NCBI GenBank assembly: GCA_949285145.1 | Contig: CASDXQ010000009.1 | Span: 1 to 40,972 of the forward strand | Length of the DNA: 40,972 nucleotides | Origin: an uncultured Spirochaetales bacterium | Lineage (GTDB): Bacteria > Spirochaetota > Spirochaetia > Sphaerochaetales > Sphaerochaetaceae | Direction: 5' to 3' | Part shown: piece after piece, positions 17,366 to 40,446 of the stretch | Position numbering within the stretch: the stretch's first letter is position 1 | Layout of the letters: the number at the start of each line of letters is the position of its first letter | Notes under the pieces: model-generated | Seen by the model: the letters and a program-made list of their open reading frames with translations, nothing else | Databases searched by the model: none | What the model was told of the DNA's origin: nothing | Program-made: the position numbers and the translations under genes

Positions 17366-18155
17366 GACATATAATATACATACTCATTCTTTTTACTGCG
17401 GGCATGGCAGCGGAACCATTGCGGAATATGTGAAAGAGGCGGAGGCTAAAGGGCTTGACCTTCTGGGATTTTCCGAACATTGTCCCTTTCCTGACAACTT
17501 TCTCCATCGTTCGCGCATGGACTACAGCATGATGAGTTCTTATGAGAGAGATGTCAGGAAGCAGAAGGAAGAGAGCGGCATTCAGATTCTCCTCGGCTAC
17601 GAATGCGATTATTTTCCCCGTTACCGGGAGTATCTTGCGTCTCTCAGGGAAAGAGTTGATTATCTTGTGACAGGCACGCATTTCATAGAAAGAGCTGACG
17701 GCTCAAGGGTCTCTCCTTTTTCATCAATACTCACGGTTGATGAGCTTTATCGCTACCGCGATCAGTTCATAGGCGCACTTGAAAGCGGACTATTCGATTA
17801 TGCCGCGCATCCGGATCTTTTCATGGCGGGCTCCGCATCATGGGATGATGTCCATAAACGTGTCGCACGTGAGATCATAGGAGAGGCCGTGAGTCTTTCC
17901 ATCCCGCTTGAGATAAACGGAAACGGAATGCTGAAAAGACAGGCTCCCGACCGGTTCTGCTATCCTTTCGGTCCGTTCTGGTCGCTTGCGTCAAAGATGG
18001 GTGCCGATGTGATTCTCTCAACGGATGCCCACAGCACCGCAAATCTTGTATTGACGAAAGAACGGCTTGAAATATTTGCCCATCAGCATGGAGTGCGGCT
18101 TGTGCGTCCTTTTTTCGAAAACGGAAAACTAAAATGGAGAAGGAGAGGAGAATGA
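17349..18155 (+). CDS. PHP-domain phosphatase (histidinol-phosphatase family)
   Basis: A 268-residue PHP-fold phosphoesterase of the HisJ/HisK histidinol-phosphatase family. Metal-binding motifs run in order: NIHTHSFYCGHG (HxH, near residue 9), LLGFSEHCPFPD near 38, GYECDYFP near 79, TGTHF near 104, YAAHPDLF near 151, and STDAHS near 223. The ATG at 17349, inside the mltG end, is chosen because the domain begins there; the open frame extends further upstream only by reading through mltG out of frame. With no other his genes nearby it may act on another phosphomonoester. Its 3' end overlaps the convergent pseudouridine synthase gene by 27 bases. Confidence 0.86.
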   Translation: MNVFTETYNIHTHSFYCGHGSGTIAEYVKEAEAKGLDLLGFSEHCPFPDNFLHRSRMDYSMMSSYERDVRKQKEESGIQILLGYECDYFPRYREYLASLRERVDYLVTGTHFIERADGSRVSPFSSILTVDELYRYRDQFIGALESGLFDYAAHPDLFMAGSASWDDVHKRVAREIIGEAVSLSIPLEINGNGMLKRQAPDRFCYPFGPFWSLASKMGADVILSTDAHSTANLVLTKERLEIFAHQHGVRLVRPFFENGKLKWRRRGE

Positions 18156-19382
18156 CACCCTCTCTCCTGTAGAAGGATGTATGAAACTCAGCGTTTCGGC
18201 ATGCAAGGCAAGCCTTTCACCTTCTTTTCTTGTTCCGTAAAGTCTGTCTCCCAGTATGGGGCATTTCAGGCCTGATGCGCTGTGCACTCTCAGCTGATGT
18301 GTCCTGCCGGTATGAGGAGTGAAACGGACACGCGTAACAATGCGTCCGTCAATTATTTCCACGGACAGACGTTCAAATTCAGTGACAGCTTTCTTGCCAC
18401 TCTGCATATCAACAATCTGATACGGCCTGTTATCCGTATCAAGACGGAGCGGAAGATCGATCAGACCGCGTTCTTCCTTCACCAGACCATCCAGAAGGGC
18501 AATATATGTTTTTGAAACTGTCCTGCCTTCAAACTGCCTTGAGATGAAGCTTTTTGCTTTTTCATTCTTGGCAAGCACAAGAAGCCCCGATGTATCCATG
18601 TCAAGTCTGTGAATTGAAGGAAGAAGAGGAGCAGAGGGAAATATTTTCTTCACTCTTGATGATACGCAGTCGGCCTTGTCTTCACCTTTACCGGGGACGG
18701 AAAGCATCCCTTCATCTTTGTTGACTATGACGATATCATCATCGCTGTAGATTATATCGATAGTGAAGATATGTCTGAGAATAAGTGCGCATTTCTCGTC
18801 ACATGGAGGATAAGAGTGGAGATGCTGTCTCAATGTGCTGTCATGTCCGTAGTAGATTTCGCATAACGACAAGGGTTCCCATCCTTTCCTGAAACACCAT
18901 GAAAGCAGTTTCACGGCAGCACAGTCGCCGGTTCCAGATGGAGGTGCCGCTTTCAGGTTCATGTCCCTGAACCCGATCTTCCCGTACGGTGTGTGAAAGG
19001 AATAGTTTTCAAATATCTTCTCAAGACATTCCGCAGACAGGCTTCTTCTTATCGGTTCAAGATCTTTTTCACCCATCTCAATACGATCTGAATAGCAGTG
19101 TATCCTGCTGTCGTATTCTTCCACGATTTTTTCAAAAGAAGAGACGGAGAAACATGGAGGAACATATCCTTTTATGATATAACTGCCGTCAAAACTGCCG
19201 GAGAAGGCATATGATACAGTCTCCTGTCCTTCCGGTGTTCCTGCAATGAGGCATCCGAGCATGAATGACCTGCCTTCAATGGAGTGAAGGCCTTTCTCGT
19301 CAAGTGTGCCGCGCTTTTCAATTTCCTTTATTTTCTCTCTTAAAGCGCTTTCCGCCTTTTTCTCACTCAGAATATTCAGCAT
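18129..19382 (-). CDS. RluA-family pseudouridine synthase with an N-terminal extension
   Basis: A 417-residue protein. The C-terminal half (about 205-417) is an RluA-type pseudouridine synthase that isomerises uridine in rRNA or tRNA: catalytic Asp261 in SIHRLDMDTSGLLVLAKN, then KTYIALLDG near 295 and HTGRTHQLRVH near 370. The N-terminal ~190 residues form a second domain (FMLGCLIAG..., VKLLSWCFRKGWEPLSLCEIYYG). This resembles the extension of the long RluA-like synthases of some gamma-proteobacteria and Bacteroidetes, function unknown. No S4 domain is seen. Its ATG shares one base with the stop of the GpsA-like gene, so it is coupled to it. Confidence 0.87.
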   Translation of the reverse strand: MLNILSEKKAESALREKIKEIEKRGTLDEKGLHSIEGRSFMLGCLIAGTPEGQETVSYAFSGSFDGSYIIKGYVPPCFSVSSFEKIVEEYDSRIHCYSDRIEMGEKDLEPIRRSLSAECLEKIFENYSFHTPYGKIGFRDMNLKAAPPSGTGDCAAVKLLSWCFRKGWEPLSLCEIYYGHDSTLRQHLHSYPPCDEKCALILRHIFTIDIIYSDDDIVIVNKDEGMLSVPGKGEDKADCVSSRVKKIFPSAPLLPSIHRLDMDTSGLLVLAKNEKAKSFISRQFEGRTVSKTYIALLDGLVKEERGLIDLPLRLDTDNRPYQIVDMQSGKKAVTEFERLSVEIIDGRIVTRVRFTPHTGRTHQLRVHSASGLKCPILGDRLYGTRKEGERLALHAETLSFIHPSTGERVSFSSPSPF

Positions 19383-20356
19383 CAGCTGAATACCGTGAGG
19401 AGATAGTCGTTCAAAGTCTTTCCTTCGTACAGCAAGCCGTAAAGAGCCTGCACAAGAGGGTAGTCCTTTTCAATTCCCAGCCTGCGGGTGCTTTCTCCGA
19501 AAAGCTTGATAGAACGATGACCTTCAATGAGTGTCGCCGATGAACCGCTTGTGTAGTCGAATCCTTTTCCGATTAGCATGCCCAGTGTCCTGTTCCTTGA
19601 CAGGTCGTTGAGGCCTGTCAGCCCGAGGTCTCCGATTGCGCAGTAACGGAATATTGTCTCTTCGTCACAGTTGTAGAGCTTTAGGAACCGTCTCATTTCG
19701 TTTACAGCTTTAGTATAGACAAGGAAATCGACGTTGGGACTTGAATAACGTCCTGATACAAGCCCTATGGCAATGGCATACATGTTCTTCAGGATGGATG
19801 TGAGCTCGACACCTCTGATGTCGTCTGTATGGTCGAGAATCATGCTGGTGCCTGAAAAAAGCTGATCCTTGACGAACATGTAATCTTCTTCTCTTCCCCC
19901 GAAAGTGAATGCGGTTGGAAAACCGTTGAGGACTTCTATTGCGAAGCTGGGGCCTTTCATGCTGGCTGTATGCCTGAACGGAATTTTCTCCGTGATGAAT
20001 GCCCCGTCATCGCTCATTCCCTTTGCAAGGTTTATTACAAGCGGTTCCCTGTCTGCTGTGTATTTTCTGATCTCCTGAGAAAAACTGACGATCGCTTTTG
20101 AAGGGATCACCAGAAAAATCTCATCAGCATCGGCAAAAACAGAATAGTCTCCGCTTGCTTTGAGATTCATGTTCAGAAAGCGTGTGGGAAAATATTTCAC
20201 ATTCCTGTGCTGTTCATTGATTGTCCTGACAACGTCGCTTTCCACAGAGTGTATCACTACATTGTTTTTATCATTCCACGCAAGACGCTCTGCTATTGCA
20301 GTTCCGAATACTCCGCCACCGGCAACGACAACATTGTTCTTTTTCTCACTCATCAT
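19382..20356 (-). CDS. gpsA: NAD(P)-dependent glycerol-3-phosphate dehydrogenase (GpsA-like)
   Basis: A 324-residue dehydrogenase that reduces dihydroxyacetone phosphate to glycerol-3-phosphate for phospholipids. The Rossmann motif is VVAGGGVFGTAIAERL near residue 9. The family block GPSFAIEV lies near 134, SILKNMYAIAIGL near 184 holds the catalytic Lys, and AIGDLGLTGLNDLSRNRTLG lies near 235. The usual ATKGIE is NLAKGMS here, so this is a divergent member and the exact substrate is less certain. The stop of the GH36-like gene overlaps its start by 4 bases, with GAGGG just upstream, so it is coupled to a carbohydrate-type gene. The pairing is unusual. Confidence 0.85.
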   Translation of the reverse strand: MMSEKKNNVVVAGGGVFGTAIAERLAWNDKNNVVIHSVESDVVRTINEQHRNVKYFPTRFLNMNLKASGDYSVFADADEIFLVIPSKAIVSFSQEIRKYTADREPLVINLAKGMSDDGAFITEKIPFRHTASMKGPSFAIEVLNGFPTAFTFGGREEDYMFVKDQLFSGTSMILDHTDDIRGVELTSILKNMYAIAIGLVSGRYSSPNVDFLVYTKAVNEMRRFLKLYNCDEETIFRYCAIGDLGLTGLNDLSRNRTLGMLIGKGFDYTSGSSATLIEGHRSIKLFGESTRRLGIEKDYPLVQALYGLLYEGKTLNDYLLTVFS

Positions 20357-22629
20357 GTTCCCTCATTGATTCTTTTGAATAAATATAATCTTGTGGAATG
20401 GTCTCCCATGACTCTCATTCCATGTGCATATGACGCTCCCATGTAATGCTCGCACAGCCTCAGTCCTGCCCATTTGAGTATCTCGCCGGAGACTGTATAA
20501 GCCTCTTGTTCGAATTCAGGCGGCTGGAAATAGTCTTCCACCGACGTGAATTCGGCTTCCTCATTTCTTCTTGACACTTCATATATTCCGTTTTCATCCG
20601 CATCAGGAACGAAAATGATGTCATCTTCTGCGGATGGCACCATGTTTCTGTAGGCAAGCAGCAGCATTATTATGTCCTTGTGCGGACTTATCGAGTAGAG
20701 AATCACCCTGTTTGCGTTCTCCATGACACGGAAACTGCCGAACTGGAATACGGAGCGGTACATTTTATAGAAGCTGATCTGTTCTTTCAGCATCATCTTC
20801 TCCCTGCTGCTGAGCCTGTTCAGCTCAATTGAATAGCTCAGCGAACCGAAAGCCGCGATGTTGAATGCGCTTGAAAGACTTGAATACCGGCCCTCCAGAT
20901 TCCATCTTCTTTCTGTAATCATATTGGAAATGCAGGACAGAGGCACGATAGATGATGCCCCGATGACTGCATCAAGCATTTCGAAAGAATCATTTACTGC
21001 AGTGCTTGCAAGCAGCGATGATGATGCAAGCAGGGAAAGATCGAAGCGCGGCGAAGTGGAACTCACATTCTCGATCAGCAGGTTCGGGAAAGACAGCATA
21101 ATGCTTCTCTGCAGACGGTTGAATGCAAGCATGTAACGGTGTCTCCAGGTTCCGCAGAGGCTGGCTTCCTCACATCGTGACCAGACATCTGCCATCTGTG
21201 TCCCGAGATTCCAGCGTATAAGATCGATACCGGTGCGTTCTATGAGACTTTTGAGAGATGAAAGGATGTCATCATAGACTTCTTCTCTTGTAAGATCTAT
21301 GAGATATCCTCCTTTTTCATTCGCATTGTTCTTTTTTCTCGGATCTCTTACAAGCCAGTCAGGGTTCTCCATGGCATAGCGGCTGTTCAGTGATGCCATC
21401 TCGGGACTGATCCACAACCCGAAAAGCATGCCTGCCTTATGGCATGCTTTTGAAATTTCCGCAAGCCCGTCAGGGATTTTCATGGTATTTGCGCTCCAGT
21501 CTCCCAGAGAGTCCTCTGCACTTGATCTGACACCGAACCAGCCGTCATCAAGGACAAATAGCTCAAAGCCGAGAGCCGCTGCATTCCTGATCTCTTCAAG
21601 AATGCGGTCTTCCCTGACATCAAGCCCCAGACTGAATGCGGTACTGAAAGAAACCGGACGCAGCCTGTTCTTCCATGTGCCCCTGATCACATGGTTCTCC
21701 TCAAATGCATGAAGCATCTCAACCGCCTTATCCCGGGATGAAGCCGAAACAAGCACAGCCTCAGGGGTCTCAAAGCTTTCTCCGGTTTTAAGCACAGGTC
21801 TTACAGTATCATTGTTGAGTCCAGTGACGATATGTGTCTTTCCGTATGGACTTACCTCCACTGTCTCTTTATGATCCCCTGAATAGAGAAGGGCAGAGAT
21901 GATGCATTGCCGGCTGTTTTCCAGAATAATGCAGCTGGATTTCTGTCCGGTAAAGCCGCTTCTCGATTCATTCACAAAGGCTGTCCCCTCTCTGAGCCTT
22001 TCCCTTTTCTCCCTGTTTTCCCTTCCGTACGGACCGCCGAAAAGACAAAGGTCATAATCACATGTGAAAAGATCAAGCTGCAGGCTTGCGGCTTTCTGCA
22101 GCGCAATTCCGCTCTTTGATCTGTTTGTGATGACAGCTCTGCGCACAATGGCATCGCATGAGGGAAAAACCGTGTAATAAAGGGAGAGCATTATGCCTCG
22201 GCTGCTGTCAGTAAAATCTATGCGTATGCCGTGGGCATCATCTTCTCCTCCCAGTGCCTGCACGATTGCCGAAGCGGCTCTTTTTATTCCTTTGTATGTT
22301 TCATGCGAGAAATACCTGAGATCAAGGCTGGAACTGCAGTTCCCTGAGGCAAGTATGCTGATGAGCGGAGAACGGAAATCACCACCTCCCTCAGCAGAGA
22401 ATTCAAGCGGGAGGTCATTCAGGTTTACTTCCCAGTTTCTGTCATTGAAGGACACTTCACCGTTTCTCGGGACAAGCCTTTTCATTCTCAGCGGCAGTGA
22501 ATATGCTTCAGGATTTCTGAGTCTCTGTCCATAATGGAGATGTTCAGGCAGTCCGAGTTCGTTTATCATGAAAATATAGCTTGTATTATTCGTCGCGAGG
22601 TGGAAAATATTGTTTTTTACAGTTATCAT
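20353..22629 (-). CDS. GH36 alpha-galactosidase-like protein with Asn at the nucleophile position
   Basis: A 758-residue protein with the full three-part layout of family GH36 alpha-galactosidases. The N-terminal beta domain runs HLHYGQRLRNPE... and GGGDFRSPLISI. The central TIM barrel carries FELFVLDDGWFG near residue 354 and LFGLWISPEMAS near 396. The motif that is normally KWDMNR, carrying the catalytic nucleophile Asp, reads RWNLGT here, with Asn474 (codon AAT at 21210-21208). The acid/base Asp is kept in RFD (Asp530), but the usual SGGGRFD is TSPRFD. It may therefore be catalytically dead, a binding or regulatory relative, or use another mechanism. The ATG at 22629 is chosen because AAGGA precedes it and similarity starts there. 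There is no signal peptide, so it is cytoplasmic. Confidence 0.85.
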   Translation of the reverse strand: MITVKNNIFHLATNNTSYIFMINELGLPEHLHYGQRLRNPEAYSLPLRMKRLVPRNGEVSFNDRNWEVNLNDLPLEFSAEGGGDFRSPLISILASGNCSSSLDLRYFSHETYKGIKRAASAIVQALGGEDDAHGIRIDFTDSSRGIMLSLYYTVFPSCDAIVRRAVITNRSKSGIALQKAASLQLDLFTCDYDLCLFGGPYGRENREKRERLREGTAFVNESRSGFTGQKSSCIILENSRQCIISALLYSGDHKETVEVSPYGKTHIVTGLNNDTVRPVLKTGESFETPEAVLVSASSRDKAVEMLHAFEENHVIRGTWKNRLRPVSFSTAFSLGLDVREDRILEEIRNAAALGFELFVLDDGWFGVRSSAEDSLGDWSANTMKIPDGLAEISKACHKAGMLFGLWISPEMASLNSRYAMENPDWLVRDPRKKNNANEKGGYLIDLTREEVYDDILSSLKSLIERTGIDLIRWNLGTQMADVWSRCEEASLCGTWRHRYMLAFNRLQRSIMLSFPNLLIENVSSTSPRFDLSLLASSSLLASTAVNDSFEMLDAVIGASSIVPLSCISNMITERRWNLEGRYSSLSSAFNIAAFGSLSYSIELNRLSSREKMMLKEQISFYKMYRSVFQFGSFRVMENANRVILYSISPHKDIIMLLLAYRNMVPSAEDDIIFVPDADENGIYEVSRRNEEAEFTSVEDYFQPPEFEQEAYTVSGEILKWAGLRLCEHYMGASYAHGMRVMGDHSTRLYLFKRINEGT

Positions 22630-22678
22630 AGTGAATGTCCTTAAATGATATATTAAAGGAAAACGGTGGAGTTGACAA

Positions 22679-23878
22679 ATGGATATAAGGCGTATTCCGT
22701 TATGGGAATCAAGAAATGCGACTTTCATGAGCAATAATCTGATCAGAGCGGTCATTGAAGACCAGGGGGAAGTTGCCATTGAATTGTCAGCGAAATCCGT
22801 GCAGGGCGGTTTTGTGAATGCTCTGTCTCTTCCTTATTTCAGAGGACGCGGTCTTGGTGTATCCTGTGATGAAAATGCCGACTGGTATAAAAGCAAGCAG
22901 AGTTTCTATCAGGCAGGCGGAATATATCTCACATTTCCATCAAAGGATGAGGATATGATTCTCACCAGCAATACATGCTGGATGGTGCGCAGATACGGTT
23001 CGGACGGCAGCAGCGGAGCATTGTGGAGACTGAGCGAGATGAAATCGCGACAGGAACATAACCGCTACCATGCTTCAAAGATTGATATAGTGTTTCCCGG
23101 ACATCCTGTGCTGTATTCCCTTGTCCGGCTTTCAAACAGCGGAGAAGAGGAGCTTTCATATAACGCGGGTATCCATTCCATGCTTTCTCCGCCTTTTCTT
23201 GAATCCGGATGCTTCATCAATACGGTTCCCTCTTCCTTTTCTGCTTTCTCTCCCAATTTCAGGGAAGTCGCACACAACAGACTCAGAAGCGGGGTGCGCT
23301 TCAGCGACCTGAAGCATGCGCCGGGCATCAGCAGCTCTTCTGTCGATGCGGGGTACGTGCCGGGACCCGCGGGTTCTTACGATTATATTGTGGGACAGAT
23401 AGCGAAAGGCGAGGAACTCGGATGGATCAGCGTTGTCAATCCGCGTCTTCAGATGATTTACCTTGTGTTCTTTCCGGCTCCGGCTTCAAACCTGGATGAC
23501 AGCGTGATGAAATGCGGCAATATCGATATCGCATACAATTTTCTCGGACGCATGGACAGCCCGTGGGCTCTTTATGAGGGAGGCACGCCACAGGTGTTCA
23601 GCCTCACGCTTGGATTCGGAAGACTTGACCATCATAATACTTTCGATACGCCGTCGGGATATGTCCTCAAACCGGGCGAGACAACGGATCTTGTATCCGC
23701 CCAGGCTTTTACCAGCTATGACAACCCGAGAATATCAAATGGCTTCTTTTCTATTGAGAAAGAAGCTCACGGACTGGTATGCAAGCGTACTAAAAGCTAC
23801 GCTTACATCCAGTGTGATTATTCATTTGCCTCTGTAAGGGAACTTGCCGCGCGTCTTTTTCAGAACTCCCAGGAATAA
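22679..23878 (+). CDS. mutarotase-like (aldose 1-epimerase superfamily) hypothetical protein
   Basis: A 399-residue cytoplasmic protein rich in beta strands, with a layout like the galactose mutarotase supersandwich fold. Suggestive pieces are FMSNNLIRAVIEDQGEVAIEL at the start (split here as FMSNNLIRAV and IEDQGEVAIEL), FVNALSLPYFRG, LVRLSNSGEEELSYNAGIHS in the middle, and PWALYEGGTPQVFSLTLGFGR near residue 300. I cannot name a substrate or identify the paired catalytic His/Glu with confidence. GGTGGAG at 22664-22670 supports the ATG. It diverges from the GH36-like operon across 49 bases, so the two probably share control of one sugar. It overlaps the convergent dehydrogenase gene by 19 bases. 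Confidence 0.7.
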   Translation: MDIRRIPLWESRNATFMSNNLIRAVIEDQGEVAIELSAKSVQGGFVNALSLPYFRGRGLGVSCDENADWYKSKQSFYQAGGIYLTFPSKDEDMILTSNTCWMVRRYGSDGSSGALWRLSEMKSRQEHNRYHASKIDIVFPGHPVLYSLVRLSNSGEEELSYNAGIHSMLSPPFLESGCFINTVPSSFSAFSPNFREVAHNRLRSGVRFSDLKHAPGISSSSVDAGYVPGPAGSYDYIVGQIAKGEELGWISVVNPRLQMIYLVFFPAPASNLDDSVMKCGNIDIAYNFLGRMDSPWALYEGGTPQVFSLTLGFGRLDHHNTFDTPSGYVLKPGETTDLVSAQAFTSYDNPRISNGFFSIEKEAHGLVCKRTKSYAYIQCDYSFASVRELAARLFQNSQE

Positions 23879-24996
23879 TCAAGATTGAAACGCGATGTGA
23901 ATTCTTTTATCACTTTCTGCAGTGACGGCGGTACGGGGCATCCGTGCACTTTTCTGTACTGCCATGCAAGATACTCTTTTTCTCCGGGGGTGTAGATGCG
24001 TTTTTCTCCCGGAGCTTTCCTGCTTGATCTCAGCTGCCTGCAGATCGTTCCTGCAATATGCCTGAATATCTCCTCTCCCATGAAAAAAGATGTGTTTATG
24101 GCAATGAAGAAATGTCCCAGAGGATATGGAATGAGCCTGCCTGCATCGTTCCTCCCGTTAAGGGATTTCATCCATGAACCGTCCTGAAGCGCTGCGGAAA
24201 GTATTTCAACGACTGCGGCATAGCCGTAACCTTTATAGCCTCCGTTTTCTTCTCCTATTCCTCCAAGAGGAGTCAGTGCCGCCTTGCCTTTCGTGAGATC
24301 TTCAAGCACTCCGAGTGTATCTGTCCTGTCTCTGCCGTTCTCATCTATCACCCAGCCGTGCGGAAGATCTTTTCCGGCGCGTCCGTAAACCTCTATCTTT
24401 CCTCTCTGGGTTACACTTGTGGCGCAGTCAAGCACGAATGGAAACGCCTCATCTGTCGGAAAAGCGAATGTGAGGGGATTGGTGCCCATCATATTCTCCA
24501 CTCCGAAAGTCGGCGCTATCGAAGGGCGTGCGTTTGTTCCTGTGATGCCGATCATGTTTTTGTCTGATGCCATTGTGGCGTAGTAACCTGCAATGCCGTA
24601 ATGGGTGGAATTCCTTACAACTGACATGCCAAGCCCGTATTCTCCGGCTTTCTCAATTGCCATCTCCATTGCTTTTTTCGCAATGACATGTCCCATACCG
24701 TTGTGTCCGTCAATCGTCACGCAGGCTTTCTCATCTTTAACTATCTCAATTCTTGTTACCGGATTGAGAATCCCTGCATCAATGCGGTCTATATAAATAG
24801 GCTTCAGCCTTCCGATGCCATGGGAATCAATCCCCCGCTTATCTGATTCTATCAGCACGTCGCTGATTGTCTCCGCATCAGCTTCCGGAACTCCGCTTGA
24901 AACAAGGACATCCCTCATGAAAGATTCAAGTTTTTCAAATGGAATCCATACACAGTCTGCATATTTCTGTGCATATTCTCTGAAATAATCATCCAT
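23860..24996 (-). CDS. malate/L-lactate/ureidoglycolate dehydrogenase family (Ldh2)
   Basis: A 378-residue NAD(P)-dependent oxidoreductase of the Ldh_2 family, which reduces 2-keto acids or oxidises their hydroxy acids. Members include malate, ureidoglycolate, 2,3-diketogulonate and sulfolactate dehydrogenases. Typical blocks are SDKRGIDSHG near residue 51 (catalytic His), VVRNSTHYGIAGYY near 126, GTNARPSIAPTFG near 153, GTNPLTFAFPT near 171 and GYKGYGYA near 253. No rule separates the substrates from sequence alone. AAGGAG lies 9 bases before the ATG, but it is buried in a perfect 11-bp hairpin. The closest upstream gene on this strand is the outer-membrane protein. Confidence 0.87.
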   Translation of the reverse strand: MDDYFREYAQKYADCVWIPFEKLESFMRDVLVSSGVPEADAETISDVLIESDKRGIDSHGIGRLKPIYIDRIDAGILNPVTRIEIVKDEKACVTIDGHNGMGHVIAKKAMEMAIEKAGEYGLGMSVVRNSTHYGIAGYYATMASDKNMIGITGTNARPSIAPTFGVENMMGTNPLTFAFPTDEAFPFVLDCATSVTQRGKIEVYGRAGKDLPHGWVIDENGRDRTDTLGVLEDLTKGKAALTPLGGIGEENGGYKGYGYAAVVEILSAALQDGSWMKSLNGRNDAGRLIPYPLGHFFIAINTSFFMGEEIFRHIAGTICRQLRSSRKAPGEKRIYTPGEKEYLAWQYRKVHGCPVPPSLQKVIKEFTSRFNLDYSWEF

Positions 24997-29958: not shown

Positions 29959-30412
29959 ATATATAGCGGGTATTTGAGACATGATAGCACTAAAAATAAT
30001 AGGATAGCTCAAGGTATGGGAAAGAAGCTGGTTATTGCCTTCGTGTAATTATAGAGTGACCATATTTTGACCAAGAAAAATGCTGAGACGGTAGAGATGG
30101 GAGATAAATATGAGATATATAGCGTGGCAAAGAGAACTGATAACACCATATATTGTGTATGAGACAATGGTATTATTGAGTACGAGTAGCTCTGAACCCT
30201 TCTTCTTGATCTTGTTACGTGATAGGTGACTGATTTTTCAGCTAGCCTGTATTTGATCCATTTCTGTGCAACTGACAATATCCCTGAATTGAATAATTGA
30301 TTGCGGTTTTGAAGATTTGATTTGTAGTGGTATATTACATGCCTAGCTTTTGAATCGGCAAGATAAATCCGAGTTGTTCTGTAATCTTCTAGTAGATAAT
30401 TTGCCGAATTTC
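29959..30412. other. A/T-rich gene-free stretch between the regulator remnant and the Fic gene
   Basis: No convincing coding region is visible on either strand. The base composition is clearly more A/T-rich than the flanks. A minus-strand open frame at 30009-30278 has neither a ribosome-binding site nor a recognisable sequence. Two copies of TGAGATATATAGCG (near 29954 and 30113) are the only repeats noticed. Confidence 0.45.
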
Positions 30413-30421
30413 TGGTATTGT
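30413..30421 (+). promoter_or_regulatory. extended -10 promoter of the Fic gene (leaderless)
   Basis: TGG-TATTGT at 30413-30421, with predicted +1 at 30428, the A of the start codon. No Shine-Dalgarno is present and no clear -35 was found. Confidence 0.4.
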
Positions 30422-30427
30422 TTATTT

Positions 30428-31327
30428 ATGAAGTACTGCACGACATATGATATTGCTGAAAGCTGGAACGTTTCAGAGCGATCTGTGCGCAATTACTGTG
30501 CCCAGGGGCGTGTGGAAGGAGCTTATCGAGATGGCAGGGATTGGATGATTCCTGCAGGCGCAGCGAAACCGGATCGTAAACCAAGGACTGGCAAATTACC
30601 AGATACCCTGCTTGAACGGCTCATAGAAGAACAGGAGACAGGCCTCTCAGGAGGAATATATCATCGCCTGCAGATAGACTTGACATACAACTCGAATCAT
30701 ATCGAAGGCAGCCAGCTCACTCATGACCAGACCAGGTATATCTTTGAGACCAATACCATTGGTCTGAATACCTATTCCTCTATTAACGTTGATGACATTG
30801 TGGAGACTGTGAATCATTTCCGATGCGTGGATTATGTCATCAGGAATGCACGCCGACCATTGTCAGAGGCGATGATCAAGGGTCTTCATCACACACTGAA
30901 AGCTGGCAGTTCAGATAGCCGGAAACCTTGGTTTGCTGTTGGAGACTACAAGAGAATGGCAAATGAAGTTGGTGGCCAGGAAACAACCTTGCCAGAAGAT
31001 GTTCCCTCAGTGATGAGAAAGCTGCTTGACATCTATAACTCTGCTGAAGTGAAAAACCTTGATGACCTTCTCGATTTTCATGTCTCTTTCGAGCGTATTC
31101 ATCCATTCCAGGATGGTAACGGAAGAGTAGGCCGTCTAATATTGTTCAAGGAGTGTCTCCATTGGGATATAGTACCGTTTATAATCACAGATGACCTGAA
31201 GATGTTCTACTATAGGGGACTGCAGAATTGGAGTCATGAGAAAGGATGGTTACGTGATACAGTCCTCATGGCGCAGGACTATTTCAAGAAGGTGCTCAGT
31301 CGTTTTCAGATTAAATTTGCAGAATAA
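30428..31327 (+). CDS. HTH-Fic protein (class II, self-inhibited AMPylator-type)
   Basis: A 299-residue Fic protein. Residues 1-45 form a MerR/excisionase-like DNA-binding helix-turn-helix (TYDIAESWNVSERSVRNYCAQGR ending DWMIP). The Fic core is complete, with HPFQDGNGRVGR at residues 225-236, the HPFxx[D/E]GNGRxxR signature that transfers AMP or another phosphoryl group to a target. An inhibitory helix motif, SNHIEG (89-94), fits the class II [S/T]xxxE[G/N] form, which blocks ATP binding from within. No separate antitoxin is therefore needed, and none is adjacent. The open frame could start upstream, but the ATG at 30428 begins the HTH. It is the only intact gene in the 28.8-32.3 kb remnant zone. 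Confidence 0.88.
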   Translation: MKYCTTYDIAESWNVSERSVRNYCAQGRVEGAYRDGRDWMIPAGAAKPDRKPRTGKLPDTLLERLIEEQETGLSGGIYHRLQIDLTYNSNHIEGSQLTHDQTRYIFETNTIGLNTYSSINVDDIVETVNHFRCVDYVIRNARRPLSEAMIKGLHHTLKAGSSDSRKPWFAVGDYKRMANEVGGQETTLPEDVPSVMRKLLDIYNSAEVKNLDDLLDFHVSFERIHPFQDGNGRVGRLILFKECLHWDIVPFIITDDLKMFYYRGLQNWSHEKGWLRDTVLMAQDYFKKVLSRFQIKFAE

Positions 31328-33187: not shown

Positions 33188-35314
33188 TCAGCTTTCCTTT
33201 TTCCTGCTTTCCGCATATTGCTTAGGTGTTGTGCCCATATATTTGTCGAATACGCGGATGAAGGAGTTGCTTGATGAGAAACCCACTTCGCTTGCAAGCT
33301 GGGTTATCCTTATCTCCGGATTCTCATCAATTATTCTCTGGGCCTCGTTTATCCTGAAACGGTTGAGATAGTTCTTGAAATTCTCCCCGCTCAGACGGTT
33401 GAACACTTCAGAACAGTATTTGGGACTCAGGTTGAATTCTTCAGACAGGTCGATCAGCTGGATGTTCTCGCTATAATGGGCCTGAATATACTTTTTCATC
33501 TCATCTACAAGATAGTCGTAACGTTCGGCATTTTCCCTGTTCTTCCTTTCTATGTAATCCGAAAGCAGCGCCCTCAGCTCCCTGATCGCCACAGCCGGTT
33601 TCTGGTTGTCCCTGAGGGCTTTCCAGTTCACATAACCGTCACTGTCTTCCTTCATTTCCTGGAATATCCTCATGATTGTGGATACGAGTGCGGATGAGAA
33701 GCGCTCGAATTCCTTTTCCGTGAGTATCCTTTCGGGAGCTGTATTGTCTTTTACTATCGCATCGAAAATGTCAAGGGTGTTCACTGACGCACTCAGTGCG
33801 GCATTGATCAGCTTCCTCTCCTCGCTGATCGGGTAGTGCATCAGACCGGTGCTGTCGCTTATGTCATCTTCAGTCATGATGATCTTATCCTGAAGAATAT
33901 AGCGGCAGTCCATGATGTTAAGTGCATTCTGATACAGTCCCTTTATACCCGTCCAGCCTTCACACGGTCTGGTGATCGCAGCCTGAAGTCCCGCTTCAGC
34001 ATCGATTGCCGTGAATTCCTTCAGTGTTCTGTACAGCGTGCTGTAACATTCCTCCTCGTTTCCCGATTTGTAGATAAGCACGGAAAAACCGCTGTCGGTT
34101 ATGATGAAGTGCAGGTGCTTTACTTTTCTCGCCATCGAGTTGAAAGTGAGATTCACTGTCGCCTGCCTGCTGTCCGGAAGACTGTCAGATGAGAGAATGC
34201 TCAGGCAGAAGAAGGCTGAAATGTCATCTTCCGCGCGGTACAGCGAATCCTGACCTCTGAGATATGAACGGTATTTCTGTATGTCGGTCGCATTCTGAAG
34301 TTCCAGGCTCATTGTTATGAGTTTCTTCGAAATCTGATCGGCTTCCTGGCATTTTGCGATTATGGTGTCAAACTCATTCCCGCTTGTTTCCTTTTCATCC
34401 GCACTTGCAATGGTTTCGTATGCCTCCTTCACGGGTTTGTACAGCCTGCCTGAAACCTTCAGGAAGACAAAAAGGCATGTAAGTATGATGCACGGTATGA
34501 AAATCAGCATGAAAATGAACGGAGAGATCATTGTTGTGCTGTGGCCATAGACAGCACTGAAGTCAAAATATGAATAGCTTTCCTTTCTCAGTGACATGTT
34601 GTCCACAGTCAGCCTCCCGTCCTGCAGCATATGGAGGCTGAGATTTCCCAGTTTTTTCTCAACCTGCTCGAAAGGAGTGTAGATACGTCCGCTTGAAGTG
34701 TCGATGAAGGCATACTGTATGCCGCTTTCAAGCGGGAAAGAAAGATAGGACAGCGAGATCGTGCAGTAGAAGATGAGTGTCTTTTCGCCCAGATAGCGTT
34801 TTGCAGACAGAAGAAGTGTTGAATAGTCGGGTGTGACAGATACCGATGCGTCATCATCGGGAAGACTTCTCAGTCCCGGAGTGACATAAGAGAGAAAATC
34901 TTTCTTGCTGTATGTACCGCCGGATGTTATGACGAAGGAATCCCTGTCATCGCTCGTTATGGCGATATTGAAGGTGTCGGAATTGAAAACCGGCGATCTC
35001 CTGACAAGTTCCTGATATGAAAGAAGCCCCTGATAATAGTAGTCCGAGCTTCCAACATCTGAATAAAGCCAGTCGAGGACACATTCGCAGGTTGAAAGGT
35101 AGTCGATTGTATTGCTGATTTCCCTTATGCGCGATGAAATCATGTATGACGAGACATCTTCCAGAGATTCATTTGCATGCATTGTCGATGTCACTATATT
35201 CCTTTCGGCCAGGAAGCCTGCTGTTATGGCGATGGCTGAAACAAGAATAGCCGTAGCTATGAAAACCGAACTGAGCTGTGCATGGTAAGTCTTTAGTCTC
35301 CCTTTCTCTCGCAT
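33188..35314 (-). CDS. membrane-bound AraC-family transcriptional regulator
   Basis: A 708-residue sensor-regulator. Membrane helix 1 (about 14-37) is followed by an extracytoplasmic sensing segment of about 225 residues, membrane helix 2 (about 263-287), a linker with a degenerate cyclase-like region, then a C-terminal AraC/XylS domain (about 600-705). The two HTH units are IQLIDLSEEFNLSPKYCSEVFNRL and IRITQLASEVGFSSSNSFIRVFDKYMG, quoted as LSEEFNLSPKYCSEVF and ASEVGFSSSNSFIRVF, with the end TPKQYAESR. This is the YesN/YtdP-like single-protein design that senses a periplasmic sugar and activates the adjacent LplB/YtcP-type operon. It diverges from that operon across 183 bases, so it is very likely its regulator. 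Its own promoter starts transcription at the ATG. Confidence 0.9.
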   Translation of the reverse strand: MREKGRLKTYHAQLSSVFIATAILVSAIAITAGFLAERNIVTSTMHANESLEDVSSYMISSRIREISNTIDYLSTCECVLDWLYSDVGSSDYYYQGLLSYQELVRRSPVFNSDTFNIAITSDDRDSFVITSGGTYSKKDFLSYVTPGLRSLPDDDASVSVTPDYSTLLLSAKRYLGEKTLIFYCTISLSYLSFPLESGIQYAFIDTSSGRIYTPFEQVEKKLGNLSLHMLQDGRLTVDNMSLRKESYSYFDFSAVYGHSTTMISPFIFMLIFIPCIILTCLFVFLKVSGRLYKPVKEAYETIASADEKETSGNEFDTIIAKCQEADQISKKLITMSLELQNATDIQKYRSYLRGQDSLYRAEDDISAFFCLSILSSDSLPDSRQATVNLTFNSMARKVKHLHFIITDSGFSVLIYKSGNEEECYSTLYRTLKEFTAIDAEAGLQAAITRPCEGWTGIKGLYQNALNIMDCRYILQDKIIMTEDDISDSTGLMHYPISEERKLINAALSASVNTLDIFDAIVKDNTAPERILTEKEFERFSSALVSTIMRIFQEMKEDSDGYVNWKALRDNQKPAVAIRELRALLSDYIERKNRENAERYDYLVDEMKKYIQAHYSENIQLIDLSEEFNLSPKYCSEVFNRLSGENFKNYLNRFRINEAQRIIDENPEIRITQLASEVGFSSSNSFIRVFDKYMGTTPKQYAESRKKES

Positions 35315-35320
35315 TCCTTA

Positions 35321-35349
35321 ATTCTATACTGAGGCGTGAAAGTTTTCAA
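35321..35349 (-). promoter_or_regulatory. leaderless promoter of the AraC-type regulator
   Basis: TTGAAA (35349-35344) and TAGAAT (35326-35321) with a 17-base spacer on the minus strand. The predicted +1 is the A of the ATG at 35314. The AAGGA just before the ATG has no spacing and cannot act as a ribosome-binding site. Confidence 0.55.
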
Positions 35350-35371
35350 ACGTGAAAATCATATGCGGAAA

Positions 35372-35408
35372 AATGGAAAAAATTCCGGTTTGTTCCGAAA
35401 TTTCCATT
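35372..35408. promoter_or_regulatory. candidate operator dyad in the AraC/transport intergenic region
   Basis: AATGGAAA (35372-35379) and TTTCCATT (35401-35408) are perfect inverted arms, with an inner, imperfect AATTCCGG/CCGAAATT. A second small dyad, ATCATC/GATGAT, lies at 35426-35445. Both sit between the divergent regulator and permease genes, where an AraC operator is expected. Direct repeats, which AraC proteins often use, were not evident. Confidence 0.4.
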
Positions 35409-35497
35409 TCTCGAGAATTTTGCAGATCATCTGAAAATTGATGATTTTGTTATCAGAAAAGTGGCTTTAAGCTGGAAACACACATGAGGAGGTAAGA

Positions 35498-36445
35498 ATG
35501 AGTCTGAGAAAATCGAATCAGGAAATCCAGCTTAAGGCCCACAAGAGTCTGAACAAGCGTTTCCTCTCCTGCTGGCAGCTTCTCATACTGCTGGCACCGG
35601 GACTCATATGGTATCTTATGTTCTGCTATAAACCGATGATCGGTCTGCGGATGGCTTTCTATGACTACAATATTTTCCGTGGTTTTGAAGGAAGCACATT
35701 TGTCGGTTTTGAGAACTTCAAGATTTACATGCAGGGGCCGGATTTCTGGAGAACCATCAAGAATACGCTCATGATTGCAATCTGGCAGATGGTCATCTGC
35801 TTCCCGGCACCGATCCTGCTTGCAATCATAGTAACGGAAATGAAAGGCAAGGTGATCAAGAAAACGCTGCAGACAGCAACGTTCCTGCCGTACTTCATCT
35901 CAACTGTCGTTGTCTGCGGTATGGTCGTCAACTTCCTTTCTCCCTCAACGGGAATCATCAACAAGTTCATCGAGCTTTTCGGAGGAGATGCCACATACTT
36001 CATGGTTTATCCCCAGTATTTCAGACCGATATATACAATAATGACGCTGTGGCAGACTGCTGGCTTCAATGCTGTTGTATATATCGCTGCACTGATGGGC
36101 ATCGATCCGGAACTGTATGAAGCGGCTCTTGTCGACGGTGCCGGACGTTTCCAGAGAATATGGCATATCACGCTTCCGGGCATCATCCCGACAGTCGTTA
36201 CGATGTTCGTCATGAATATCGGCAAGATGGTCAAGGTCGGCTATGAGTCAATCCTCCTGCTGTATCAGCCTTCAACATACTCGACAGCGGATGTCATCAG
36301 CACATACTCCTTCCGTATGGGTATCCAGAACGGAGATTACGGCATTGCAACGGCGGCAGGCCTCTTCGAGGCTGTAATTGCACTCATCCTTGTTGTCTTT
36401 GCCAACAAGCTGTCCAAGCGTCTGACAGAGACGTCATTGTGGTAA
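35498..36445 (+). CDS. ABC sugar transporter permease, LplB type
   Basis: A 315-residue inner-membrane permease (CUT1 family, COG4209/LplB), with about six helices and a charged N-terminus. The EAA loop that docks the ATPase reads YEAALVDGAGRFQRIWHITLPGI (near residue 208; quoted in part as EAALVDGAGRFQRIWHITLP). PGLIWYLMFCYKPMIGLRMAFYDYN at the start is typical of LplB (quoted as LIWYLMFCYKPMIGLRMAFY). GAGGAGGTAAG at 35486-35496 gives a strong start. It is the first gene of the operon with the second permease, binding protein, sulfatase and GH88 enzyme. Confidence 0.93.
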   Translation: MSLRKSNQEIQLKAHKSLNKRFLSCWQLLILLAPGLIWYLMFCYKPMIGLRMAFYDYNIFRGFEGSTFVGFENFKIYMQGPDFWRTIKNTLMIAIWQMVICFPAPILLAIIVTEMKGKVIKKTLQTATFLPYFISTVVVCGMVVNFLSPSTGIINKFIELFGGDATYFMVYPQYFRPIYTIMTLWQTAGFNAVVYIAALMGIDPELYEAALVDGAGRFQRIWHITLPGIIPTVVTMFVMNIGKMVKVGYESILLLYQPSTYSTADVISTYSFRMGIQNGDYGIATAAGLFEAVIALILVVFANKLSKRLTETSLW

Positions 36446-36464
36446 GCAAAGGAGGTCTGAATAA

Positions 36465-37382
36465 ATGAAACATGCAGTAAATACAAAAGACAAAGGCGGG
36501 TCAATCGCCAAAATCGAAAGCAGGGGAGAGAAAATATTCGATATCTCGGTGAAGATACTCGGCGTAGTCCTCATCTTCCTCTGTCTTTATCCGATATATT
36601 ACGTATTCATTGCTTCCATCAGCCGCCCTCTGTATGTTGAGAACGGACAGGTTATGTTCACACCCGTCCTCGCAACACTGGAAAGCTACAGGGAGGCATT
36701 CCAGACACCGTGGCTGTGGACCAGCTTCGGCAACTCCATTTTCTATACATTGTGCGGTGTCATGGTCAATATGTTCTTTTCCACCACGATGGCATATGCG
36801 CTTTCAAGGCCAAGGCTCATCTTCAGGAAATTCTTCACGCTGCTTGCCGTTTTCACCATGTGGTTCAGTGCAGGCATCATACCGATGTACATGACGTTCA
36901 GGGATTTCGATCTCCTAGACACGAGAATCGCCATCATATTCGGCTTCTCGATCAGCACGTACAATATGATCATCCTGAAGAGTTTCTTCGAACAGGTGCC
37001 TGCATCACTGGAGGAAGCGGCATTCATAGACGGTGCAAGTGATTTCAGGATCTTCGCCCAGGTCTATCTGCCGCTGTCAAAGCCGTCATTGGCTACAGTT
37101 GCGCTTTTCTATGCAGTCAACAGATGGAACGGATATTTCTGGCCGATGAACCTGCTGACAAGCGATGAGAAAGTGCCTCTTCAGGTTCTTCTCAAGAAGC
37201 TTCTTGTCGACAGAACGGCAAATGAGATGGAAAGCGCCATCATCACGGCACAGTCCCTCACATCCCAGACAACGGTCATTTATGCACTCATCATCCTTGC
37301 TATCATTCCGATGGCGATTGCATATCCGTTCATACAGAAGTATTTCAAGTCAGGTATCACGCTTGGCGCTAACAAAGGTTAA
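36465..37382 (+). CDS. ABC sugar transporter permease, YtcP type
   Basis: A 305-residue partner permease (COG0395, YtcP/ThuG-like), with about six membrane helices. Its EAA loop is LEEAAFIDGASDFRIFAQVYLPL (near residue 183; core EEAAFIDGASDFRIF). The signature PLYVENGQVMFTP after the first helix belongs to LplC/YtcP. AAGGAGG at 36449-36455 precedes the ATG, 19 bases after the first permease. With it this forms the channel for an oligosaccharide. No ATPase gene is present in the cluster, so a shared MsmK-like ATPase encoded elsewhere must energise it. Confidence 0.93.
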   Translation: MKHAVNTKDKGGSIAKIESRGEKIFDISVKILGVVLIFLCLYPIYYVFIASISRPLYVENGQVMFTPVLATLESYREAFQTPWLWTSFGNSIFYTLCGVMVNMFFSTTMAYALSRPRLIFRKFFTLLAVFTMWFSAGIIPMYMTFRDFDLLDTRIAIIFGFSISTYNMIILKSFFEQVPASLEEAAFIDGASDFRIFAQVYLPLSKPSLATVALFYAVNRWNGYFWPMNLLTSDEKVPLQVLLKKLLVDRTANEMESAIITAQSLTSQTTVIYALIILAIIPMAIAYPFIQKYFKSGITLGANKG

Positions 37383-37402
37383 TTTTTAAAAGGAGATAAA
37401 AC

Positions 37403-39016
37403 ATGAAAAAAGCATTGATTGTACTTTTTGCTCTTTTTGCATGTGCCTTGCCCCTTATGGCAGGCGGCAGCGGCGAGACGACAACATCTGCATCGGTGGC
37501 AGAAGCAAGACCGACGCTGAATGAAGATGGAACTTTCCACCTTCCGATTACAGATGAGAAGACCACATTCACAATCTTCCTCAATTTCAACAACATGCCG
37601 TTTGACCCGAACTGGGCTGTCTGGCAGGAACTTGAGAAACGCACAAACATCCGTTTTGAAAGTGTCATAAGCCAGTCAAACTCCAATGAGGATGAGGCAT
37701 TCAACCTGATGCTCAGCTCCGGCAACCTCGCTGATGTCATCGGTTATGTAAGTGCTGCAGATCTTGAGTCTCTCGGCCGTGACGGCGGTCTTATTCCTCT
37801 CAATGACCTCATTGATGAGTATGCACCTCATATCAAGGCTCTGATGGAAGAGGATCCTGCATTTGCCCAGTATGCGACAAGTACGGACGGAAACATTTAC
37901 TTCATTCCAAAAAACCAGACAATGAACAATGCCGAGTTCTGGTTCATCCGCCAGGACTGGCTTGACAAGCTCGGTCTTGAGGTCCCGACAACAGTTGATG
38001 AGCTTTATGAAGTTCTCACGGCATTCCGCAATGAGGATCCCAACGGGAACGGACTCAAGGACGAAATTCCTCTCTTCGACCGTGCCGGCTGGAAGATGCC
38101 TGATGAATACCTTTACCTCTGGGATACTTCAATTGAGTTCTATGTACGTGATGGAAAGGTCACATACGAACCTCTTGAAGAGAACTTCAAGACAGGTGTG
38201 CGCAATCTCGTGAAGTGGTATCAGGAAGGGCTTATTGATCCTGAAATCTTCACACGCGGACCGAAGGGAAGAGATACTCTTCTTGCAGCAAACCTCGGAG
38301 GTATGACACATGACTGGATCAGTGCCGTTGACTACAACACGAAACTTACTTCCGATATTCCCGGCTTCAAGATGGTCGGTATCGCTCCTCCTGCAGACCA
38401 GAACGGTGTAGTGAAGGAGAGAACAATGAGATATCCTGGTGTCGGCTGGGGAATTTCATCACAGTGTGAAGATCCTGTCACCGTGATCAAGTTCATGGAT
38501 TATCTCTTCACGGAAGAAGGCAGCAACCTCATGAACTGGGGTATCGAAGGTGTCAGCTATTATGTTGACGAGGACGGTCAGAAACAGTTCTATGATACAG
38601 TTCTCAACAGCGATCAGACTCCTGTCGGATACCTGAGAAGCATAGGCGCTCTGTACAGAGTCGGTATGAACCAGACAGGTGAGTACGAGATTGTTTCCAC
38701 AAACGATGAAGGAAGAGCTGTCATTGAGCTTTATGAAGCACATCCTGAATGGTATGACCAGAGCCAGCCTCCGTTTGCTGACGGTGAGCTAGACATGAAG
38801 TACTTCCCTGAAGATGAGACGAGGTACGAGAGAATCATGGGCCAGATCCAGCCGTATGTGGAAGAGAAGCTTCAGAGCTGGATTCTCGGAACAAGCAACT
38901 TCGATGCCGATTATGATGCTTTCATCAAGGAACTTCACACCCGCGGTATCGATGAGGCTATCGAGATCAACCAGAGAGCTTACGATTTCTATATCGAAAG
39001 CAGTCAGAATATCTGA
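37403..39016 (+). CDS. extracellular solute-binding protein (LplA/oligosaccharide type)
   Basis: A 537-residue binding protein that captures an oligosaccharide for the two permeases. The signal peptide is residues 1-20. Cleavage after ALPLMA would leave GGSGETTTSASV, the Gly/Ser/Thr linker usual for spirochaete binding proteins. A Cys14 inside the hydrophobic core could also form a lipobox, so lipidation is uncertain. Family blocks are FNMPFDPNWAVWQELEKRTNI (quoted as DPNWAVWQELEKRTNI), NLADVIGYVSAADL, GGLIPLNDLIDEYAPHI and WFIRQDWLDKLGLEVPTTVDELYEVL (quoted as RQDWLDKLGLEVPTTVDELY). Asp-rich EDPNGNGLKDEIP resembles a calcium-binding loop seen in glycosaminoglycan binding proteins. AAAGGAG at 37390-37396 sets the start. 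Confidence 0.92.
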   Translation: MKKALIVLFALFACALPLMAGGSGETTTSASVAEARPTLNEDGTFHLPITDEKTTFTIFLNFNNMPFDPNWAVWQELEKRTNIRFESVISQSNSNEDEAFNLMLSSGNLADVIGYVSAADLESLGRDGGLIPLNDLIDEYAPHIKALMEEDPAFAQYATSTDGNIYFIPKNQTMNNAEFWFIRQDWLDKLGLEVPTTVDELYEVLTAFRNEDPNGNGLKDEIPLFDRAGWKMPDEYLYLWDTSIEFYVRDGKVTYEPLEENFKTGVRNLVKWYQEGLIDPEIFTRGPKGRDTLLAANLGGMTHDWISAVDYNTKLTSDIPGFKMVGIAPPADQNGVVKERTMRYPGVGWGISSQCEDPVTVIKFMDYLFTEEGSNLMNWGIEGVSYYVDEDGQKQFYDTVLNSDQTPVGYLRSIGALYRVGMNQTGEYEIVSTNDEGRAVIELYEAHPEWYDQSQPPFADGELDMKYFPEDETRYERIMGQIQPYVEEKLQSWILGTSNFDADYDAFIKELHTRGIDEAIEINQRAYDFYIESSQNI

Positions 39017-39036
39017 CAATAATATCAGACGGAAAA

Positions 39037-39058
39037 GAGGGGTGCTCAGGCGCCCCTC
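39037..39058 (+). promoter_or_regulatory. intercistronic stem between binding-protein and sulfatase genes
   Basis: GAGGGGTGC (39037-39045) pairs with GCGCCCCTC (39050-39058), one G-U pair, with a TCAG tetraloop. No T run follows; TGTGAGGAGG, the sulfatase ribosome-binding site, comes straight after. It is a likely 3'-end protector that keeps binding-protein mRNA more abundant than the distal genes, or a weak terminator. Confidence 0.5.
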
Positions 39059-39075
39059 CCTGTGAGGAGGACAAT

Positions 39076-40446
39076 ATGGGAAGGAAAAAGAACCTGATTT
39101 ATGTATTTGCAGATCAGTGGCGCTATCATGCAATGGGCTGCAGCGGGGAGGATCACGTCAATACTCCTGCGATGGATGAGTTCGCCAGTGACAGCGTTTT
39201 CTGCAATAACGCTCTTTCAACTTACCCATTGTGTTCTCCTCACAGAGCCGCATTGCTGACGGGAAAGAATCCGCTGTCTCTCGGCATGTGGACAAATTGC
39301 AAGATAGGTCTTAATGAGAATGTGATGCTCTATCCTCAGGAGGTGGCGATATCCGATGTGCTTCATGAGGAAGGCTATCTGACAGGATATGTGGGCAAGT
39401 GGCATCTTGATGCAAGCGAGATGAATTTTTTTCCGTCCCCTGAATCAGGTGCCGTGGAATGGGATGCCTACACTCCGCCCGGAGAAAGACGGCATAATTT
39501 TGACTACTGGTATTCATATGGTGCGATGAACAGTCACATGCATCCTCATTACTGGCACGACAGCAGCAGAATGATAAACATAAACCGGTGGTCCGCCGAA
39601 CATGATACGGATGTTTTCATAAAATATCTTGAAAGCGTGAAGGGAGAGGATCGTCCGGTTCTCGCATTCCTTTCATGGAATCCTCCCCATCCCCCCTATA
39701 CCGATATAGACGACAGAAGAAAGGCGCTTTACACGGAAGATCATGCATTCCGTCCAAATGTGCCTGAAGCGTGGAGAAGTGATAAGGATTATCTTGAGAA
39801 ACGGCATGATTATTTTGCAGCAGTTGCAGGACTCGACGAGCAGTTCGCACGTCTTGTCACTTATTTGAAGGACAGCGGAATGTATGACAATTCCATCATT
39901 GTCCTTTCAGGTGACCATGGGGATATGATGGGTTCTCATGGCCTGTACGGAAAGAATGTATGGTATGAGGAGTCTCTGAGGATTCCTCTTGTGATCCACG
40001 ATCCGGATTTAGGCAGCGGATGCAGCAACTCAATCATAATGAGCGAGGATCAGATGCCGACGCTTCTTGATCTCATGGGAGTGAAGATCCCTTCCACTGT
40101 GAACGGGATAAGTCATGCATCCTCTCTTCTCTCGCAGCAGAGCGGCAGAGAGTATTCATATCATATGATGATACCCGGAATGCCAGAGCAGGTGATGCCT
40201 TACAGAAAGAGGGGTCTTGATAACCGCTGCTTCGGCTGGAGATGCATCAGGACGGGCAGACAGAAGTATGTCATCGACAGCGGCACTGTTCCCGGTTCTG
40301 AAGTGAAAAGGTATCTTTATGACCTTGAAAAAGATCCTTATGAGATGAATCCGCTTGAGCTGTCTTCCTCTGATGTGCAGGCTCAGCATTTTGATTCGCT
40401 TATAAAAGAGAACAAGAGTCTTCATAACGATATTTTCCTTATATGA
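39076..40446 (+). CDS. S1-family sulfatase with Cys-type formylglycine site
   Basis: A 456-residue sulfatase of the arylsulfatase/S1 fold, which removes sulfate esters from carbohydrates. The formylglycine motif is PLCSPHRAALLTG, with Cys53 (CxPxR) to be oxidised by an anaerobic (anSME) or FGE-type maturase. The metal set is VFADQWR near residue 10 and LSGDHGDMMGSHGLYGK near 280, with KWHL near 104. There is no signal peptide, so it acts in the cytoplasm, after import. GAGGAGG at 39064-39070 gives the start. It lies between the transporter genes and a GH88 hydrolase, a combination that points to sulfated uronate-containing oligosaccharides. Which sulfate position it takes is not deducible. 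Confidence 0.9.
   Translation: MGRKKNLIYVFADQWRYHAMGCSGEDHVNTPAMDEFASDSVFCNNALSTYPLCSPHRAALLTGKNPLSLGMWTNCKIGLNENVMLYPQEVAISDVLHEEGYLTGYVGKWHLDASEMNFFPSPESGAVEWDAYTPPGERRHNFDYWYSYGAMNSHMHPHYWHDSSRMININRWSAEHDTDVFIKYLESVKGEDRPVLAFLSWNPPHPPYTDIDDRRKALYTEDHAFRPNVPEAWRSDKDYLEKRHDYFAAVAGLDEQFARLVTYLKDSGMYDNSIIVLSGDHGDMMGSHGLYGKNVWYEESLRIPLVIHDPDLGSGCSNSIIMSEDQMPTLLDLMGVKIPSTVNGISHASSLLSQQSGREYSYHMMIPGMPEQVMPYRKRGLDNRCFGWRCIRTGRQKYVIDSGTVPGSEVKRYLYDLEKDPYEMNPLELSSSDVQAQHFDSLIKENKSLHNDIFLI

Follow-up and report, generated by a model that had tools for sequence, protein, structure and literature searches.

The window analyzed here (the whole stretch of 40,972 nucleotides, from an uncultured Spirochaetales bacterium) encodes a GH36-like protein that, judged from its sequence, is almost certainly a dead alpha-galactosidase, and this protein of gut spirochaetes probably has a task other than sugar cleavage today. 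The hallmarks of a pseudoenzyme are present in the sequences and in the predicted model: the catalytic residues are lost, and the fold and the purifying selection are kept across species. The locus is arranged as follows:

18129 to 19382, minus strand: RluA-type pseudouridine synthase (profile match), with a 1-nt overlap with gpsA
19382 to 20356, minus strand: gpsA, NAD-dependent glycerol-3-phosphate dehydrogenase (profile match), its start overlapping the GH36 stop
20353 to 22629, minus strand: GH36-like predicted pseudoenzyme gene, 758 aa (Pfam Melibiase and Glyco_hydro_36N, GH36 matches in the PDB, orthologue starts)
22630 to 22678, no strand: divergent intergenic region, 49 bp (48 to 64 bp in the aligned genus rows)
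22679 to 23878, plus strand: divergent neighbor, 399 aa, with a galactose-mutarotase-like supersandwich fold (predicted model)

The 758-aa frame starts at an ATG at 22629 that is conserved in the orthologues, and the protein begins MITVKN; a longer, 808-aa ORF from 22779 begins inside the coding region of the divergent neighbor. The original prediction of GH36 homology over the whole length was borne out by nearly full-length matches to Melibiase (239.9 bits, E 5e-71) and Glyco_hydro_36N (149.3 bits, E 2e-43), both above the curated cut-off of 27, and by a PDB sequence search that returned GH36 enzymes with E values down to 1e-99, the best being subgroup-I alpha-galactosidases. The AlphaFold model (pLDDT 85, pTM 0.89) aligns with AgaA (4fnp; VIA-align, Z 45.2, 1.9 A over 702 residues) and has the three-domain subgroup-I fold, so that both the domain scores and the modeled fold place the protein in the GH36 fold family by descent. 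With the characterized enzymes of subgroup I (AgaA/AgaB of Geobacillus, LaMel36A, AgaSK, SpAga) it shares full-length homology, the three-domain fold and the DDGWF and GLW..PE motifs; it differs from them in that the nucleophile, the acid/base and most of the -1 subsite residues have been replaced. Truncation or frameshift as the cause of the site loss is ruled out, the gene being full length and in a single frame. The best explanation of the protein is vertical descent from the GH36 subgroup-I alpha-galactosidase found beside gpsA in these spirochaetes.

The active site was tabulated with AgaB (PDB 4fnq) as the reference, aligned with 70 spirochaete proteins. In GH36 the nucleophile is Asp478 in KWD and the acid/base is Asp548 in SDxxDxxxR (PMC8509150); in RgAga the catalytic pair is Asp478 and Asp540, and the -1 subsite is made up of Trp336, Asp366, Trp411, Arg443, Lys476 and Trp537 (PMC7688924). 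Counting residues in AgaB places Asp548 in WTSD, and PDB entries 4FNT (D548N) and 4FNU (D478A) are mutants at the same two catalytic positions. By alignment with AgaB, the corresponding positions of the window protein are these:

21637 to 21639, minus strand: Ala331, at the Trp336 position (-1 subsite, role from PMC7688924)
21313 to 21318, minus strand: Glu438-Lys439, with Lys439 at the Arg443 position (-1 subsite)
21214 to 21216, minus strand: Arg472, at the Lys476 position
21208 to 21210, minus strand: Asn474 (codon AAT), at the nucleophile position (AgaB Asp478)
21196 to 21204, minus strand: Gly476-Thr477-Gln478, adjoining the lost nucleophile (Gly and Gln newly invariant in a ten-species clade)
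21064 to 21066, minus strand: Val522, at the Cys526 position
21007 to 21009, minus strand: Ala541, at the Trp545 position (Trp537 of RgAga; PMC7688924)
20998 to 21000, minus strand: Ala544 (codon GCA), at the acid/base position (AgaB Asp548, SDxxDxxxR)

As first noticed, the protein reads RWNLGT (RWNLGTQ) where GH36 enzymes have KWDMNR, and Asn474 is confirmed both by the AgaB alignment and by its AAT codon on the minus strand. The accompanying claim that the acid/base, in RFD, had been kept does not hold: the Asp of RFD is there, but in GH36 the part of acid/base falls to Asp548, in SDxxDxxxR, so that the RFD Asp does not show that any catalytic residue survives, and since Asp548 aligns with Ala544, both catalytic residues are gone (there is neither a nucleophile Asp in KWD nor an acid/base Asp in SDxxDxxxR). 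The loss also goes further than had been described, W336, R443, K476, C526 and W545 being replaced as well; D361, D362, W406 and E410 are kept relative to AgaB, and only Asp366 (D361) and Trp411 (W406) survive of the six residues listed for the -1 subsite. With the nucleophile, the acid/base and most of the -1 subsite replaced, retaining hydrolysis by the GH36 double displacement is not to be expected.

The laboratory mutants SpAga D472N, AgaA D478A and AgaA D548N likewise exchange a catalytic carboxylate for Asn or Ala; going by the titles of their PDB entries they were solved with intact substrate bound, in line with both carboxylates being required for turnover. These mutants keep the rest of the pocket, whereas in the window protein the pocket has been dismantled too. 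Pseudoenzymes are already known among other glycoside hydrolases: PMC6549527 describes them among plant-cell-wall hydrolases, for example the beetle polygalacturonases, which are reported also to have been retained, catalytically dead, with an alternative role proposed. The beetle proteins, as described there, belong to duplicated multigene families, whereas here the syntenic single-copy orthologue itself has lost catalysis. Within the literature searched, no work joining “GH36” with “pseudoenzyme” was found.

Our search of the window's family-level group covered 139 genomes (an order-level search gave the same 139), 114 of which have GH36 matches. The window and L034-L042, ten species of the genus, form one clade with support of 100. 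Over these ten species the nucleophile position reads N in six, S in two, and D and E in one each, so the thought that Asn474 might be conserved across a clade fails, and Asn474 as a conserved functional residue is ruled out. The acid/base position is A, S or V, with D in none of the ten; not one of them retains W336, R443, C526 or W545, and the D366 position is S or G in three. L041, whose nucleophile position is the one Asp, offers no rescue, since its acid/base is still missing. Sequencing error or an isolated mutation is ruled out by the nine further species of the genus that also lack an intact site, and the proposal of a clade-wide, maintained non-canonical protein finds support in the ten species, in dN/dS well below 1 and in the intact predicted fold. 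Three sister species of the same genus (L043-L045) keep the whole canonical site, L046 keeps the nucleophile and has Glu at the acid/base position, and the more distant genera carry the canonical site almost throughout, the exception being L069. A paralogue in the window's own genome (G000:C29) has a canonical site, and most genomes of the genus have a second GH36; whether take-over by a paralogue triggered the loss is not clear, since a second GH36 match is absent from one species that carries the dead copy (G008, 97% complete), and other species have both.

Loss of the catalytic dyad, as the sequences suggest, has been repeated across the family. Among 28 sampled orthologues of genus g10, 15 have lost the acid/base only, seven both residues and one the nucleophile only, and five keep both. 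Parsimony gives 7 changes for the nucleophile, 8 for the acid/base and 7 for the dyad (8, 12 and 9 if regain is disallowed), counts that are approximate because the tree was built quickly and some of its forks are weak. Independent active-site losses were also seen in L031, L052, L082, L085-L089 and L069 (for example RWGFSRY, LRYEKTRL or KWGMSRT for KWDMNR). In the g10 relatives L102-L105 the GH36 gene is eroded almost beyond recognition: the ORFs, of 614 to 629 aa and in frame (L102:4768-6636, L103, L104:7348-9192 and L105:3763-5607), are sited between the mutarotase-fold gene and gpsA and are weakly recognizable as GH36.

For the GH36 gene, dN/dS between the window and the nearest species is 0.05 to 0.06, with 0.05 for the unsaturated pair L034/L035 (dS 0.41), 0.15 to 0.23 for deeper pairs and 0.20 for the eroded genes of L102 and L103; the neighboring genes give 0.01 to 0.17. 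Residues invariant over the ten clade species number 185, the barrel being the most conserved domain, and 58 are invariant in the clade and, at a level of at least 95%, in the canonical set. Gly476 (from Asn480), Gln478 and Pro527 are newly invariant in the clade, and Ser408 stands in place of Glu413 in nine of the ten species. Among strongly conserved columns, 8 of 10 in the active site have been lost versus 42 of 114 elsewhere (p 0.014, ancestry not corrected). Mean identity within the dead clade is 58% for GH36 versus 82% for GpsA; in g16, whose GH36 is canonical, both proteins stand at 82%. The GH36 protein of the clade evolves faster than its neighbors, yet under purifying selection, its constraint loosened rather than gone, and the faster divergence also fits partial relaxation.

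The linkage to gpsA and rluA is confirmed and holds throughout the ten species; of the two ATGA overlaps proposed, the one between GH36 and gpsA stands (ATGA, 4 nt), and that between gpsA and rluA is instead TGATG, 1 nt. The same order (the divergent orf22679, GH36, gpsA, rluA) is found in 10 of 10 clade species and in the canonical sisters. From GH36 to gpsA the ten species have a gap of -8 to +11 nt, the members of the genus other than the window's own species an overlap of 1 to 8 nt or a gap of 5 to 13 nt, and most g10 genomes an overlap of 4 nt; in the canonical g16 the two genes lie 1.7 kb apart, with what read as a putative FAD/NAD oxidoreductase gene and a GNAT-type gene between them. 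Of the 44 gpsA-coupled genes 35 have a broken dyad, versus 1 of the 26 uncoupled ones, a comparison uncorrected for ancestry and drawn mostly from one large clade. A PF07479 search of the window's genome (96% complete) found no glycerol-3-phosphate dehydrogenase gene besides this gpsA, and a promoter scan of the locus gave no more sites than shuffled sequences. The RluA-type synthase (18129 to 19382, minus strand) has about 200 extra N-terminal residues before its catalytic domain, with no Pfam match there.

This arrangement could mean that the GH36 gene is kept mainly as a translated leader, delivering ribosomes to the overlapping gpsA start, so that the frame is kept and the protein largely drifts. 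The 4-nt overlap in most coupled orthologues would suit such a role, as would the near confinement of dyad loss to gpsA-coupled genes, the extreme erosion with an intact frame in L102-L105 and the faster divergence of GH36 than of its neighbors. Nevertheless, the window and its closest relatives, with dN/dS of about 0.05, are far from free drift, 185 residues have stayed invariant over ten species, the barrel remains the best-conserved part, and a leader would need no 758-aa three-domain fold. We regard a leader as an unlikely account of the window's gene; it would account better for the gene's survival where erosion has gone furthest than for its survival in the clade of the window.

The divergent neighbor (22679 to 23878) had no confident match in Pfam or NCBIfam, nothing in a PHROGs search and nothing useful in a PDB sequence search, and its fold was assigned from the model, which aligns with 3ty1 (Z 23.5, 3.8 A over 296 residues). 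It shares the supersandwich fold of galactose mutarotase (GalM/aldose 1-epimerase) and differs from it in having no invariant histidine in its alignment, so that the GalM His pair is not kept; two of 25 members of the neighbor family reach Aldose_epim, weakly. The neighbor is present in 102 of the 139 family-level genomes and is carried by all sampled loci with a broken GH36. Beyond it lies a malate/L-lactate dehydrogenase-type gene (Ldh_2; 23860 to 24996, minus strand), close to the mutarotase-fold gene in several genera, whose nearest NCBIfam model is L-sulfolactate dehydrogenase with a score below the cut-off. Elsewhere, the window holds a Fic/DOC-family protein (30350 to 31327, plus strand) and, from 33188 to 40446, an AraC-type regulator, ABC sugar-transporter-like genes (two permeases and a binding protein) and a sulfatase, a gene content that suggests a sulfated-glycan locus.

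A sugar-binding pseudoenzyme was among the functions first proposed, and such a protein, or a sensor, might still hold galactosides in the old active site. The kept D361, D362, W406 and E410 could contribute to such binding, crystals of D-to-N mutants of the GH36 nucleophile, for example SpAga D472N, contain substrate (again going by entry titles), and the neighboring gene has a mutarotase fold. Set against this, W336, R443, C526 and W545 are gone from every one of the ten species and for the most part vary freely, unlike a conserved binding site, and even the D366 position is no longer Asp in three (S or G). The old pocket is a disfavored site for galactose binding because the sugar-contacting positions are the very ones that vary freely in the clade; residues adjoining them are newly fixed, and the pocket has been reshaped, with the galactose site not preserved. 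On the sequences we consider sugar binding of this kind quite improbable.

The suggestion of a hydrolase with another nucleophile is unsupported, since the acid/base is also lost and most of the galactose contacts are gone. An enzyme with a rebuilt active site would have to use Glu438, or the kept Asp362 and Glu410, on another substrate or by another mechanism. Glu438 was gained in nine of the ten species and adjoins the Arg443 position, and G476, Q478 and P527 are newly fixed near the pocket. Against this, the pocket has not acquired two new acids, and position 478 varies among N, S, D and E. Screening the acids gained by the clade (about 20, scattered over the protein) for a replacement nucleophile left Glu438 as the sole one beside a pocket residue, and it is a weak candidate that lies in a low-confidence stretch of the model (mean pLDDT about 54); we give such an enzyme very little credence. 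Slow decay of a gene whose catalysis had become unnecessary, caught before loss of the frame, would accord with the 7 to 9 dyad changes on the tree, with the 694-aa protein of L054, which is missing some pocket loops, and with the second GH36 that remains in most genomes of the genus, but it is highly improbable given that the frame is open in all ten clade species and in the eroded g10 genes and that dN/dS is below 1 wherever measurable.

We return to a retained non-catalytic protein function, which the sequences make likely for the GH36-like protein, its three-domain scaffold having been kept for a job other than catalysis. The partner or sensor of the first proposals stays a candidate, and a role with GpsA or with the divergently transcribed mutarotase-fold protein seems most plausible: the protein may be a partner of GpsA or adjust the amount of GpsA, the two being co-translated, or it may be a partner of the mutarotase-fold neighbor encoded 49 bp away. 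A more specific scenario, in which catalysis was shed several times in parallel after coupling to gpsA, the protein turning into a specialized partner or regulator of GpsA with no enzymatic role, is one that we put forward as rather unlikely, though worth stating. If true, it would link the supply of phospholipid precursors to a protein that was once a sugar enzyme. Automatic annotation would call these proteins alpha-galactosidases, which is very probably wrong for the clade and for many of its relatives. One conserved locus offers a natural series of orthologues, from fully canonical to almost unrecognizable, that could show both how an enzyme becomes a pseudoenzyme without duplication at the locus and to what use the GH36 scaffold is put after catalysis has gone.
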